Assembly: GCA_013202335.1 (NCBI GenBank)
Contig: JABMQR010000290.1
Coordinates: forward strand, 1 to 5,692
From: Bacteroidota bacterium
GTDB taxonomy: Bacteria; Spirochaetota; Spirochaetia; JABMQR01
DNA length: 5,692 bases
Direction of reading: 5' to 3'
The notes below the pieces were generated by a model. The model was not told the DNA's origin. It ran no database searches and worked only from the letters and a program-made list of their open reading frames with translations. This document shows, piece after piece, positions 2,116-5,692 of this stretch; the stretch's first letter is position 1, and each line of letters starts with the position of its first letter. Position numbers and translations under genes: made by a program.

Positions 2116-2175
2116 GCACAACAAAGTGTTGCATAGCGACGCGGTGAACCGCGCACGTGAAAGCAGACGTTAGCT
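2116..2175 (+). other. attC: attC recombination site 1 (end of kinase cassette)
   Basis: This 60-bp imperfect palindrome begins four bases after the kinase stop codon. It has the outer boxes of an attC: GCACAAC at 2116-2122 and GTTAGCT at 2169-2175, the latter holding the G-TT crossover point. Inside, CGCGGT (2140-2145) and ACCGCG (2148-2153) form the tip of the folded strand. The inner arms (2127-2133 and about 2159-2166) pair imperfectly with an extra base in one. The first 23 bases from AAC match attC-3 at 20 positions, strong support that both are true sites of one array. Integrase would act on the folded bottom strand. Confidence 0.8.
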
Positions 2176-2199
2176 TGCAGAGAATTACAAATTGCCTCT

Positions 2200-2230
2200 T
2201 TGACAAAACTCGAAAAAAATATGGTATACT
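2200..2230 (+). promoter_or_regulatory. Cassette-borne promoter upstream of the MBL-fold gene
   Basis: A consensus -35 TTGACA (2200-2205) is followed by an extended -10, TGG plus TATACT (2222-2230). The spacing is 19 bases, longer than optimal, but the TGn extension usually compensates for this. It lies 25 bases inside cassette 2 and predicts a leader of about 140 bases ahead of the hydrolase start. Most integron cassettes lack a promoter, so this cassette can probably be expressed at any place in the array. Confidence 0.6.
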
Positions 2231-2330
2231 TTCCCCGGGTTTTATCAAGACAGCAAGGGGTCGAGGAAGTTTCAGGTATCCAGGCATGTTATAGTCAAAA
2301 GCACCAAGTGATTTATTATTACAAAGAAGA

Positions 2331-2349
2331 ATCCGCCTACGTGGCGGAT
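2331..2349 (+). promoter_or_regulatory. Leader hairpin just upstream of the MBL-fold gene
   Basis: ATCCGCC (2331-2337) and GGCGGAT (2343-2349) form a perfect 7-bp GC-rich stem with a 5-base loop, in an otherwise AT-rich leader. It ends 15 bases before the GGAG ribosome binding site (2365-2368). No T-run follows directly, so it is not a standard terminator. It could stabilise the mRNA or bind a regulator; its role is unknown. The rest of 2176-2330, beyond the promoter, shows no convincing gene. Confidence 0.4.
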
Positions 2350-2374
2350 AATTCGTATTTTCTTGGAGAGTCAA

Positions 2375-3238
2375 ATGAAATTAGAAGTTCTAGGTTCTGG
2401 TGGTGCTGTTATAACTCCAAAACCTTTGTGTTCATGTTCGGTTTGTAGAGAAGCCAGAGAAAAGGGACAGAAATATTCAAGGCTAGGGCCATCTGTATTT
2501 ATTCATGGACCTAATATACTAATTGATACTCCTGAAGACATTTCTACAGAATTAAATCGTTCAAACATAAATAATATAAATGCTTGTTTTTATTCTCATT
2601 GGCATCCAGATCATACTGCAGGAAAGCGAATCTTTGAAATGAATATGGACTGGTTGAACAATCCTCCAAACCACAAAAAAACAAAAGTGATTCTCACTGA
2701 ATCTATTGCCGATACTTTTAAATCTTATATGTCTATCATGAATCATTTTGAAATATTCATAGAGAGAGGAATAATTGAACTAGATATAATAAAAAATAAT
2801 CAAGAGATAAAAATTAATAGTTACATCATTAAGCCTGTTCAATTAGCTGAAAATTATGTTTTTGGATATGAAATAAGAAATGAAAAGAATAAAATTCTTG
2901 TAGTTATGGATGAATTGAAAAATTGGAATCCTGATAAAGAAATAAAAAAAACATATTATGATCTTGTATATTTACCATTTGGAGTTTTTGACTTTAATCC
3001 TATAACAAATATTAGACGAATCAAAAAAGATAACCCTTTATTGTTGTATGAACAAACTATTGATGAAACCATTGAACTTATAAAAGTATTAAACACGAAT
3101 GAAGTAATACTTTCTCATATAGAAGAGCCTTATGGTATTTCAATAGATTTGGCGGAAAATCTATCAAAATATTACTCAGGACTTACTGGTAAAAAGATAC
3201 AATTAGCATTTGATAGTTTAATGGTTGAAATTGAATAA
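2375..3238 (+). CDS. PhnP-like metallo-beta-lactamase-fold hydrolase
   Basis: A 287-residue MBL-fold protein of the PhnP/PqqB-like branch, expected to be a cytoplasmic metal-dependent phosphodiesterase or related hydrolase; the substrate is unknown. The N-terminus MKLEVLGSGG leads to a cysteine cluster, C19, C21 and C24 in CSCSVCREAR, like the structural zinc site of PhnP. The metal motif SHWHPDH supplies H75, H77, D79 and H80. D179 in LVVMDEL and H248 in LSHIEE are the later ligands. At the position where PhnP has its third histidine, a few residues before FGY, this protein has LAENYVFGY with no histidine, so one metal may be bound differently. ATG at 2375 is chosen over an in-frame TTG at 2363 because GGAG (2365-2368) sits six bases upstream. 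The gene is much more AT-rich than its neighbours, suggesting a different origin. It is the only gene of cassette 2 and follows the promoter at 2200-2230. Confidence 0.85.
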   Translation: MKLEVLGSGGAVITPKPLCSCSVCREAREKGQKYSRLGPSVFIHGPNILIDTPEDISTELNRSNINNINACFYSHWHPDHTAGKRIFEMNMDWLNNPPNHKKTKVILTESIADTFKSYMSIMNHFEIFIERGIIELDIIKNNQEIKINSYIIKPVQLAENYVFGYEIRNEKNKILVVMDELKNWNPDKEIKKTYYDLVYLPFGVFDFNPITNIRRIKKDNPLLLYEQTIDETIELIKVLNTNEVILSHIEEPYGISIDLAENLSKYYSGLTGKKIQLAFDSLMVEIE

Positions 3239-3277
3239 TATTGGAAATCTCTGGAATAATTATATACCCATATCGCA

Positions 3278-3337
3278 AGATAACGAGGGTTTTAAAGCTG
3301 TCAGGTCTTCTACCTGCACCTTAATACAACGTTATGC
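3278..3337 (+). other. attC: attC recombination site 2 (end of MBL cassette)
   Basis: This is the best-folding site in the window. Outer boxes AGATAAC (3278-3284) and GTTATGC (3331-3337) pair as ATAACG with CGTTAT. Further in, TTAA (3292-3295) pairs with TTAA (3321-3324), then G, TG and CAGGT (3297-3306) pair with ACCTG, CA and C (3312-3319) around the loop CTTCT. C3298 and T3301 are unpaired and both lie in the left arm, as expected for the extrahelical bases that direct strand choice in attC sites. Its sequence outside the core boxes differs from sites 1 and 3. It starts 39 bases after the hydrolase stop. Confidence 0.83.
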
Positions 3338-3378
3338 TTTTAGAAACAACCGCATATAACGGTCGAAGGTAAAATAGA

Positions 3379-3843
3379 TTGAAAAGAAAAGTGAATGCAG
3401 AAACTGAAGCAATAGAACACCTCGTTGAGAAGGAAACTCATGCATGGAACAATAAGGACGTTGAAACGCTACTATCACTGTTCCATGAGGATATGGTATG
3501 GCCTTGGCCAATACAAAATGAAGATCATGATCCTATAAGCTGGTCAATATCACAAGGTAAATTCAATGCTAATCGTTGGCGAACCGGTTGGGATCAGTTA
3601 TTTACGACATATGAATTAGTGCATAATAAACGAACTATTGCAAAAATAGAGTTGTCTCATGAACGTGATGCTGCGTTCGCTGTCGTAGACATAGAAACCT
3701 TGTGGCGAGAACGTAAAACAGGCAAGACGTCTCACTGGAAGGGACGAACGTGCAAAGTGTACACTCGGACATCCAAGGGCTGGAAGATGATTATGCACAC
3801 TGGGCCGCTAGAATACGAAAGCTTAACAAGGGGGCGTGCATGA
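3379..3843 (+). CDS. NTF2/SnoaL-like protein
   Basis: A 154-residue protein with the layout of a one-domain NTF2-like (SnoaL/DUF4440-type) cone fold. An N-terminal helix (AIEHLVEKETHAWNNKDVETLLSLF, residues 11-35) leads to a short HEDMVWPWP turn, then to strands ending in GRTCKVYTRTSKGWKMIMHTGPLEY (122-146). Such proteins bind or transform small molecules or serve as scaffolds; no specific catalytic pair can be assigned here. The start is TTG at 3379, with GAAGG (3365-3369) nine bases upstream. A GTG at 3391 is in frame but has no suitable ribosome binding site. It is the first gene of cassette 3, beginning about 45 bases after the cassette junction. Its stop overlaps the next gene's start as ATGA, so the two are probably translated together. 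No signal peptide or membrane segment is seen. Confidence 0.72.
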   Translation: MKRKVNAETEAIEHLVEKETHAWNNKDVETLLSLFHEDMVWPWPIQNEDHDPISWSISQGKFNANRWRTGWDQLFTTYELVHNKRTIAKIELSHERDAAFAVVDIETLWRERKTGKTSHWKGRTCKVYTRTSKGWKMIMHTGPLEYESLTRGRA

Positions 3844-4748
3844 AATTGGATGATCTAGTGAAAAGATTGGATGAGCAGTTCGAGTTGACCGACTGGGGAC
3901 CTGATCCAGCCATGCGGAAATGGGTACCGCGAACCTACGAAGCAATCCAGTATCCATACGAAAGGGTCTTTGAACAGCGATTTTGTGAGTTGTTTAACGG
4001 TCTCATGTTGAGATCGAGTGATGACGTACAGAAAGTCTTTTGTTGCTCGTTTCCGACCCCAGGGGTCATAGCTACTGTTCTAGAGCGAAGCGATCAACCT
4101 GCGCTCCTTATCGCCCATCATCCTGTTGACATGGAGGTATCCGGCAGGGGATTCCTACCAATCGATCCAGAACACCTAAATGCTCTTCAAGAAAGCGCAA
4201 TCTCTTTTTATTCGATCCACGCACCGTTGGATGGTCATGATTCTTGTGGTACAAATTCGGCTATTATCAAGGAACTCGGTTTGCACGAGATAGAGAAGTT
4301 CGTGCCGTATGGCCAAGGCTATGCTGGACGAATCGCTGAGTTCCATATCCCACAATCTTTAGATTGCCTGACATCAATTCGAAGAACTTTTCAGGTGCCC
4401 TGGGTTGAAGTCGGTGGCAACGCTCCCCAGAAGATATCGCGAGTCGCTGTTGTCGCCGGAGGCGGAGATGACTTGGACAACATCAGAGATGCAGCCAACC
4501 GAGATTGTGATATGTATCTTTCAGGAGAGTGGTATTTCCGACAGAAACCTCAGGACCATAATGTCAGAACTCGGTTCAGTAAATCAAACCAAGCTATCTT
4601 TCATCTTGCTAACGAGAGCCGGATGCTTCTTGTCGCCGTTTCGCATGCGGCATCCGAGTTCTTAGTGATGCGTACACAAATGGCGAAATATCTTGCAGGC
4701 TTGGGACTAGATGTTGAATGTGTACCTCAAGAAGATTGGTGGAGGTAG
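3840..4748 (+). CDS. NIF3-family dinuclear metal centre protein
   Basis: A 302-residue member of the NIF3 (YbgI/YqfO) family, which forms ring-shaped hexamers around dinuclear metal sites. The biochemical role is not settled, and GTP cyclohydrolase I type 2 is a common but weak label. The family's metal motifs are present: LIAHHP (H93, H94), YSIHAPLDGHDSCGTN (H127, D131, then GTN), the SGE segment (228-230) and SHAASE (H269, E273). There is no inserted PII-like domain as in YqfO. About 60 residues precede the first recognisable strand, and FNGLML (52-57) occupies the place of the usual DN-GL motif. ATG at 3840 is chosen because AAGGGGG (3828-3834) lies just upstream; it overlaps the preceding stop by four bases. 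attC-3 begins three bases after the stop, so this is the second gene of cassette 3. Confidence 0.82.
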   Translation: MKLDDLVKRLDEQFELTDWGPDPAMRKWVPRTYEAIQYPYERVFEQRFCELFNGLMLRSSDDVQKVFCCSFPTPGVIATVLERSDQPALLIAHHPVDMEVSGRGFLPIDPEHLNALQESAISFYSIHAPLDGHDSCGTNSAIIKELGLHEIEKFVPYGQGYAGRIAEFHIPQSLDCLTSIRRTFQVPWVEVGGNAPQKISRVAVVAGGGDDLDNIRDAANRDCDMYLSGEWYFRQKPQDHNVRTRFSKSNQAIFHLANESRMLLVAVSHAASEFLVMRTQMAKYLAGLGLDVECVPQEDWWR

Positions 4749-4751
4749 AGA

Positions 4752-4810
4752 AGATAACAAAGTGCTGCACAGAGACGCCTGCGAGGGTGTTCGTGAGCTT
4801 GACGTTATAT
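4752..4810 (+). other. attC: attC recombination site 3 (end of NTF2/NIF3 cassette)
   Basis: A 59-bp imperfect palindrome with AGATAAC (4752-4758) and GTTATAT (4804-4810) as outer boxes; ATAAC pairs with GTTAT. The inner arm GCTGCAC (4764-4770) pairs with GTGAGC (4793-4798), leaving G4767 unpaired in the left arm. Further partial pairing continues toward the tip. The left half, from AAC to GACGC (4756-4778), matches attC-1 (2120-2142) at 20 of 23 positions, and CGTGA plus GACGTTA recur in the right half. The crossover point would be between G4804 and T4805. Confidence 0.82.
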
Positions 4811-4842
4811 TGCGTATAGAACTGTGGTAAGGAGAGACCCAA

Positions 4843-5556
4843 GTGAAAAAGTCACTTTCAGATAGAACAAATTACGATTCTATCGCAGCGGAATATATAT
4901 CATCCGCGGATAAGAAACCTTTTACTACATATTACGAGAGGCCATTTATTATAAAAAACTTGCCATCAGTTCAAGGACGGAAAGTCTTAGATTTGGGTTG
5001 CGCAACCGGATTTTACTCGAAGTACTGCTCGGAGAGAGGTGCGGATGTAATATCAGTGGATGCAAGTAAAAAGATGATTGAGCACACCCTGGAGGTATGT
5101 GATAACAAAATTGCAGGTTATGTGCATGACATTTCCAAGCCATTTAGATTTGTCGATGCTAACAGCATCGATGTAATAATCTGTTCTCTGGTTTTGCATT
5201 ATCTTGAAAGTTGGGACAAAACATTGGAAGAATTTCATAGGATGCTTGTCCCCGGTGGAAAGTGCATAATCTCTACACATCATCCAATTAATGATTTTAC
5301 GCATTTCAATAAAGAGAATTATTTCAATAAGAGCTTAATTGAAGATGAATGGAGTGGATTTGGAGAACCCCTTAAGGTCATGTATTTCGTGAGGCCTCTG
5401 AATGAATACATCCAGCCAATGGTAAGTAGTAACCTCACATTATTAGAAATTGCTGAACCAGAACCTGATCATAGTTTGAAAGGGATTGATAGGGAAATGT
5501 ACAAGCGGTTGAAAACAAGGCCAGCATTTCTTTTTTTTATCTTAGAAAAGGAATGA
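4843..5556 (+). CDS. Class I SAM-dependent methyltransferase
   Basis: A 237-residue cytoplasmic methyltransferase with a Rossmann-like SAM domain. Motif I is KVLDLGCATGFYSKYC (47-62), the acidic ribose-binding residue is D73 in VISVDASKKMIE, the motif near strand 4 is DVIICSLVLHYLESW (110-124), and the post-motif turn is MLVPGGKCIIS (134-144). The closest broad match is the Methyltransf_11 (UbiE/BioC-like) type. The substrate cannot be read from the sequence; the C-terminal third (FGEPLKVMYFVRPLNEYI and beyond) would form the acceptor side. GTG at 4843 is the start, with AAGGAGAG (4829-4836) in good position. It is the only visible gene of cassette 4, about 38 bases after the junction at attC-3. 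No promoter of its own is convincing, so it may rely on read-through. Confidence 0.88.
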   Translation: MKKSLSDRTNYDSIAAEYISSADKKPFTTYYERPFIIKNLPSVQGRKVLDLGCATGFYSKYCSERGADVISVDASKKMIEHTLEVCDNKIAGYVHDISKPFRFVDANSIDVIICSLVLHYLESWDKTLEEFHRMLVPGGKCIISTHHPINDFTHFNKENYFNKSLIEDEWSGFGEPLKVMYFVRPLNEYIQPMVSSNLTLLEIAEPEPDHSLKGIDREMYKRLKTRPAFLFFILEKE

Positions 5557-5662
5557 TAAATATTACACAATAAAACACATATAAGCCCCCAATACGTCAA
5601 GGGGTAAAAGAAGTCCGGCCCCGAAAAAAAATCGTTGCCAAAATCTGAATGAATGCAGCCGG

Positions 5663-5692
5663 AAATAACACGTCATCTGAGTCGATGTTCCG
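5663..5692 (+). other. Possible left half of a fourth attC site
   Basis: AAATAAC at 5663-5669, followed by ACGTCATCTGAGTCGATG, has the start expected of an attC left box and arm, and lies where cassette 4 needs one. The matching GTT half would fall past the window edge, so folding cannot be tested. The preceding 5557-5662 holds no gene; it contains a CCCC/GGGG inverted repeat (5587-5604) without a T-run. Confidence 0.3.

Follow-up and report, generated by a model that had tools for sequence, protein, structure and literature searches.

The contig JABMQR010000290.1, whose 5,692 nucleotides were analysed over their full length and are referred to below as the window, very probably (about 92%, in our estimate) represents part of an integron gene-cassette array, in which genes or gene pairs are each followed by an attC recombination site. 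From left to right, the window holds an insertion sequence (IS) of the IS1634 family, the 3' end of an open reading frame (ORF), and four open genes on the forward (+) strand. Three attC-like sites lie among these genes: site 1 at 2116-2175 (60 bases; AAC 2120-2122, GTT 2169-2171), site 2 at 3278-3337 (60 bases; AAC 3282-3284, GTT 3331-3333), and site 3 at 4752-4810 (59 bases; AAC 4756-4758, GTT 4804-4806). All three model matches are on the + strand, as are the genes between 2375 and 5556. The sites of 59-60 bp with AAC and GTT boxes in one orientation, reported in a preliminary description of this DNA, are present as described there. The crossover points, after G2169, G3331 and G4804, respectively, delimit cassette 1 (2170-3331, +), cassette 2 (3332-4804, +) and cassette 3 (4805-5692, +), the last of which starts at the crossover of site 3 and runs off the window, within which its own attC was not seen. 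These G/TT points agree to the base with the limits proposed beforehand (2170-3331, 3332-4804 and 4805 onward). Sites 1 and 3 start three bases beyond the preceding stop codon, and site 2 starts 39 bases beyond it.

Pfam and NCBIfam searches of the window proteins assigned the genes between the sites to unrelated families, and the G+C content of cassettes 1, 2 and 3 amounts to 31, 46 and 38%, respectively, which fits with separate origins of the cassettes; the family assignments bear out the functional unrelatedness claimed in the preliminary description. Cassette 1 contains a gene (2375-3238, +) for a metallo-β-lactamase (MBL)-fold metallo-hydrolase of the PhnP / phosphoribosyl cyclic phosphodiesterase-like type, whose family matches all fall under their cut-offs (NCBIfam MBL_Geo_Pelo, E = 4.2e-14; PRK02113, E = 2.9e-13; PhnP, E = 6.4e-8; Pfam Lactamase_B_2, 23.3 bits for a cut-off of 27). 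This protein has 1,292 relatives, and among the matches listed (the best 120 of the 1,292) one is named Brucepastera. The gene is preceded by a long leader holding a possible sigma-70 promoter (2200-2230, +; TTGACA, 19 bases, and TATACT preceded by TG), which the promoter scan omits because a spacer of 19 lies outside its range of 16-18, and, just upstream of the start, a terminator- or attenuator-like hairpin (2331-2349, +; 7-bp stem, 5-base loop). Five terminator-like hairpins were found in the region versus 2.4 expected from shuffles; Rfam gave no match around the leader at E <= 1, and nothing in the whole window at gathering scores. The putative promoter and hairpin could free the MBL cassette from the array promoter.

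Cassette 2, between sites 2 and 3, consists of two overlapping genes: a SnoaL-like / DUF4440 gene (3379-3843, +; Pfam DUF4440, 27.9 bits for a cut-off of 25.2; SnoaL_2, 26.3 bits, under its cut-off of 27) and a DUF34/NIF3 family gene (3840-4748, +; Pfam PF01784, 96.5 bits for a cut-off of 23.4). The latter has 115 relatives; a tblastn search of viral contigs for relatives gave none. The stop codon of the first gene and the start codon of the second overlap in ATGA (3840-3843), and, judging from this arrangement, the two are likely coupled genes within one cassette. Cassette 3 carries a gene for an S-adenosylmethionine-dependent class I methyltransferase (4843-5556, +; Methyltransf_11, Pfam PF08241, 68.8 bits for a cut-off of 21.2), which also matches Pfam TehB (26.6 bits for a cut-off of 20.4), far below PF08241, and stays under the cut-offs of the NCBIfam TehB models. 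Downstream of position 4810 the attC models gave only short, weak matches (5100-5123 and 5171-5204; at most 8.2 bits). Near the right end (5657-5692), where no model matches, the window might break off within a fourth attC, whose R'' box would be the motif AAATAAC.

In sequence, site 1 is almost a copy of site 3. Among the direct repeats listed for the window, that of their left halves is the longest, and the 20 of 23 identical bases previously noted for these halves proved exact. Agreement extends to 27 of 30 bases if GACGTTA at the right end is counted with the 23 bases of the left half, while the best value reached in 500 dinucleotide shuffles of the remaining window, on both strands, was 22 of 30; the likeness is beyond chance, as had been argued. 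Unpaired left-arm bases, the feature that sets strand choice in attC sites, were described earlier for all three sites; they showed up when sites 2 and 3 were folded (g and a within GCTgCACaGA of site 3), whereas the arms of site 1 are too weak to judge. As read from the sequence, there is hardly any R-box pairing in this divergent site outside AAC/GTT, and two G-T pairs as well as two additional right-hand bases are required to form its inner arms. Poor outer pairing does not disqualify a site, because a recombined R' derives from the next cassette in all that follows its G; with cassette 1 closed on itself, AGATAAC would stand opposite GTTAGCT, with six of seven pairs, again as read from the sequence. 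A loose scan for AAC...GTT motifs with pairing arms returned, at its cut-off, 27 places on both strands of the window, including sites 2 and 3 and not site 1, and was dropped as a detector because it does not discriminate.

The sites were then assessed with covariance models built without the window. Because the closest relative of the transposase of the IS (91% identity) lies in a metagenome-assembled genome (MAG) of the Spirochaetia, arrays of Spirochaetota were chosen for modelling: 37 of 296 sampled Spirochaetota genomes matched the integron integrase at E <= 1e-50 (in 35, above the family cut-off), and each of them contributed one training region, to which one from a further genome (G003) was added. 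Repeated AAC...GTT sites in these loci were retained when they formed a single hairpin whose left arm had more unpaired bases than the right. From the 26 sites so picked, 23 made up the first model, R1; the sites of two loci, L082 and L089, were left out for bad alignment, and L071:18073-18136 was dropped without a test. The second model, R2, was built from 136 R1 matches at E <= 3e-6 in 42 loci, and the third, R3, from eight R2 matches in class 1 integron regions. Control DNA (91,845 bp, searched with filters off) came from seven loci that are not known to contain an integron; they were picked by length from 12 candidates, and one of the seven, L008, belongs to a genome in which another contig has an integrase-like fragment. 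The two top matches of R1 in the window were site 2 (19.5 bits, E = 0.0018) and site 3 (15.6 bits, E = 0.02), and those of R2 were again site 2 (19.6 bits) and site 3 (18.4 bits), in each case with exact ends and on the strand of the genes. Control maxima were 14.3 bits for R1, 14.0 for R2 and 13.4 for R3, and both sites therefore exceed every control score with R1 and R2. R3 matched all three places at full length, namely site 3 (17.8 bits, rank 1), site 2 (12.9 bits, rank 2) and site 1 (9.7 bits, E = 0.87, rank 4); given its control maximum, R3 by itself supports only site 3. The covariance-model search that the preliminary description had proposed thus recovers sites 2 and 3, while site 1 was retrieved only by R3, and weakly. 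The positions and orientation of the sites, the model matches and the unrelated gene content are direct observations, and since the models place sites to the base, between genes of unrelated families, the integron-type array first proposed from the letters alone holds.

As a yardstick, R2 was applied to six class 1 integron regions, with 18 cassette ends counted from the gene tables. It recovered 13 of the 18, at 10.5 to 38.9 bits, and missed those of OXA-4, aadA1 of L101, dfrA12, OXA-10 and aac(6')-Ib4. As we read them, the 27 matches obtained in these regions at E <= 10 comprise 13 at cassette ends on the cassette strand (two of them being the same aadA1 site), two in a second array on a Klebsiella plasmid, nine opposite-strand copies, and three that are unexplained (L104 9580-9645, 15.0 bits; L099 8769-8831, 11.5 bits; L104 9768-9833, 11.1 bits). 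The two in the second array (21.7 and 18.6 bits) fall in an array of small genes, not known beforehand, on a plasmid with a second integron integrase. With these scores as reference, sites 2 and 3 of the window fall among genuine attC sites that were not used for training, towards the low end of the range. In its own right, the wastewater Klebsiella plasmid NZ_CP056487.1 (L105 3431-14514) carries a second integron integrase, whose name does not assign it to class 1, and a series of small hypothetical genes that share one strand; the two R2 attC matches and an IS1595 transposase lie among these genes. Among the spirochaete loci, attC sites of 131-144 bases with long structured inserts (L052 10093-10236 and L073 5982-6112) occur in the same arrays as sites of about 63-66 bases. 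In addition, the Spirochaeta MAG UBA9216 (G003) has, at a contig end and beside a GNAT gene, an integrase-like fragment of 85 amino acids (L013 1498-1755), which scores 125 bits against the integron integrase family and is under the cut-off because it is cut.

A number of results weigh against a cassette array. Site 1 is weak or unseen with every model: the R1 alignment was confined to 19 bases (2116-2134, 6.8 bits), R2 gave nothing there at E <= 10, and the R3 scores of sites 1 and 2 are under that model's own control maximum. R3 was moreover aligned with the structure of R2, on which it is hence partly dependent, the E-values of the three models are rough, and the R2 match at L104 9580-9645 lacks an explanation at a score of 15.0 bits. 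Fold energies point the same way. With AAC/GTT pairing enforced and 500 inner shuffles per site, the numbers of shuffles folding as well on the bottom and top strand, respectively, were 58 and 37 for site 1, 8 and 22 for site 2, and 90 and 62 for site 3, so that only site 2 stands out and sites 1 and 3 do not beat the shuffles; unconstrained DNA folds gave the same picture. Recombination is reported to use the bottom strand of attC (PMC2727003; PMC11023631), and with 58 and 90 of 500 bottom-strand shuffles matching sites 1 and 3, energy alone is weak evidence here. Site 1 was accepted because it is nearly identical to site 3.

Further negatives, in part also weighing against an array, come from searches of other DNA and from the contents of the window itself. 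A strict DNA pattern of sites 1 and 3 had no match in the genome_contigs or viral_contigs sets, and this type of site was not convincingly found in 392 spirochaete genomes: the left half alone, with up to 2 mismatches, gave four matches, which were counted as chance since GACGTTA occurs in none of them within 130 bases from the match start. An R2 attC search in the three genomes with relatives of the IS returned nothing, an uninformative result. No integron integrase family was matched among the window proteins with Pfam and NCBIfam, over 5.7 kb, and the head of the array, the place of attI and the Pc promoter, lies outside the window. The search for an integron integrase in the three genomes with IS relatives gave 26 matches at E <= 1e-3, none above the family cut-off, and the one in 4 genomes of the closest genome's family gave none at E <= 1e-30, which is uninformative.

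To the left of the array, the IS1634-family element (15-1754, -) comprises a transposase gene (32-1648, -) with a score of 309.8 bits against NCBIfam NF033559 (cut-off 100) and 28-bp terminal inverted repeats (15-42 and 1727-1754) that are 96% complementary, so that both marks of the family, a transposase above the cut-off and terminal inverted repeats, were found. Its left flank within the window is 14 bases long. The closest transposase is that of the Spirochaetia MAG BS150m-G37 (91% identical), and another, 85% identical, occurs in an Eubacteriales MAG; these identities would fit recent movement between phyla. Transposase relatives were not found in viral contigs by tblastn. With regard to the host, the transposase points to both MAGs, and an IS moves. 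The ORF remnant that follows (1756-2112, +), the last gene of the cassette to which site 1 belongs, is cut on its 5' side by the IS and has no Pfam or NCBIfam match. Six database proteins resemble it at E <= 1e-3, one being the window's own or an identical 102-amino-acid protein, while the five others have the residues MRIP immediately ahead of the position at which the IS ends in the window; one relative is named Chitinispirillia, and one shows a weak adenylate-kinase-like signal (ADK, E = 0.037), under the cut-off. As the start of the ORF is replaced by the IS end where five relatives read MRIP, it was probably this cassette that the IS struck.

The interrupted gene, together with the divergence and weakness of site 1, might indicate a decayed remnant (a cluster of attC lacking integrase, CALIN), that is, a true array with its integrase lost, site 1 eroded, the IS entered and the cassettes immobile. 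Such a state would be a special case of a cassette array and not exclusive of it, and we regard it as rather unlikely, since the absence of intI covers only 5.7 kb, sites 2 and 3 still match the models, and cassettes with embedded ISs are also reported from the large integron of Vibrio cholerae, the field's paradigm (PMC11023631). Far less probable is some other intergenic palindromic repeat resembling attC, such as a repetitive extragenic palindromic (REP)-like element, a terminator or a transposon end. The near-identity of sites 1 and 3 and their ordinary fold energies speak for such a repeat, but sites 2 and 3 occupy the two top model ranks with correct R-box ends on the gene strand and above 91,845 bp of control DNA, site 2 fits the same models in spite of a sequence different from that of sites 1 and 3, and the sites separate short, unrelated gene units. 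Least probable of all, and to be given hardly any weight, is a chance resemblance in ordinary intergenic gaps: candidates with AAC and GTT are indeed common, as the 27 places of the loose scan attest, yet sites 2 and 3 take the first two places in the window with both R1 and R2, above the control, and 27 of 30 bases are common to sites 1 and 3.

For a cassette array, established knowledge of integrons suggests the course of events, from integrase action and strand choice to the cutting point. A tyrosine recombinase, IntI, whose gene would lie elsewhere, would turn the bottom strand of attC into a hairpin and cut it between the G and TT of the R' box, upon which the cassette would be excised as a circle or inserted at attI; the IS1634-family element would have entered the cassette before site 1 later, cutting its gene. 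We infer that the array stems from a chromosomal integron of an uncultured bacterium, perhaps a spirochaete; what the window itself shows is a fragment of a cassette array, not a complete or active integron. One may further speculate, with odds that we place clearly below even, that the integron belongs to an unsampled lineage with an attC subtype of its own (left half AACAAAGTGYTGCAYAGMGACGC), absent from the genomes searched, and that its cassettes may be equipped for expression deep inside the array, either by a promoter and leader hairpin of their own (as in cassette 1) or by the translational coupling of a gene pair (as in cassette 2). The window adds environmental cassettes, with an MBL-fold hydrolase, a SnoaL/NIF3 pair and a methyltransferase, to the pool of integron-borne mobile genes, and exemplifies how sequence data alone suffice to fix cassette limits at single-base precision. 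Existing knowledge of integrons is unchanged by it.

Compared with known systems, the array resembles the chromosomal integrons of the Spirochaetota (Treponema and relatives) in its short AAC/GTT sites of one orientation, with extra left-arm bases in the folds of sites 2 and 3; the attC sites of Treponema denticola are reported to measure 63-68 bp (PMC3607928). It departs from these integrons in that no integrase was seen in the window, and from the retrieved arrays in site sequence, two left-half patterns being unmatched in 88 loci. With the cassettes of class 1 integrons (attC of aadA, catB, aadB, blaVIM-2 and others) it shares the architecture of the sites, R3 matching at full length in all three places, whereas the window is without intI1, its cassette genes match general metabolic or unknown families, and resistance enters the names of the matches above cut-off only once, with Pfam TehB for the methyltransferase, a match far weaker than those of the general methyltransferase models. 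In IntegronFinder 2.0, CALIN are defined by at least two attC sites and no integrase (PMC9024848), and the window is like them in having at least two attC-like sites without an integrase in the sequence, a statement that applies to a fragment of 5.7 kb and not to a searched genome. Its mobile element conforms to the IS1634 family in both the transposase, above the family cut-off, and the 28-bp inverted repeats. Overall, the window is a cassette-array fragment of an already known kind of system, and a genuine but ordinary new example of it.

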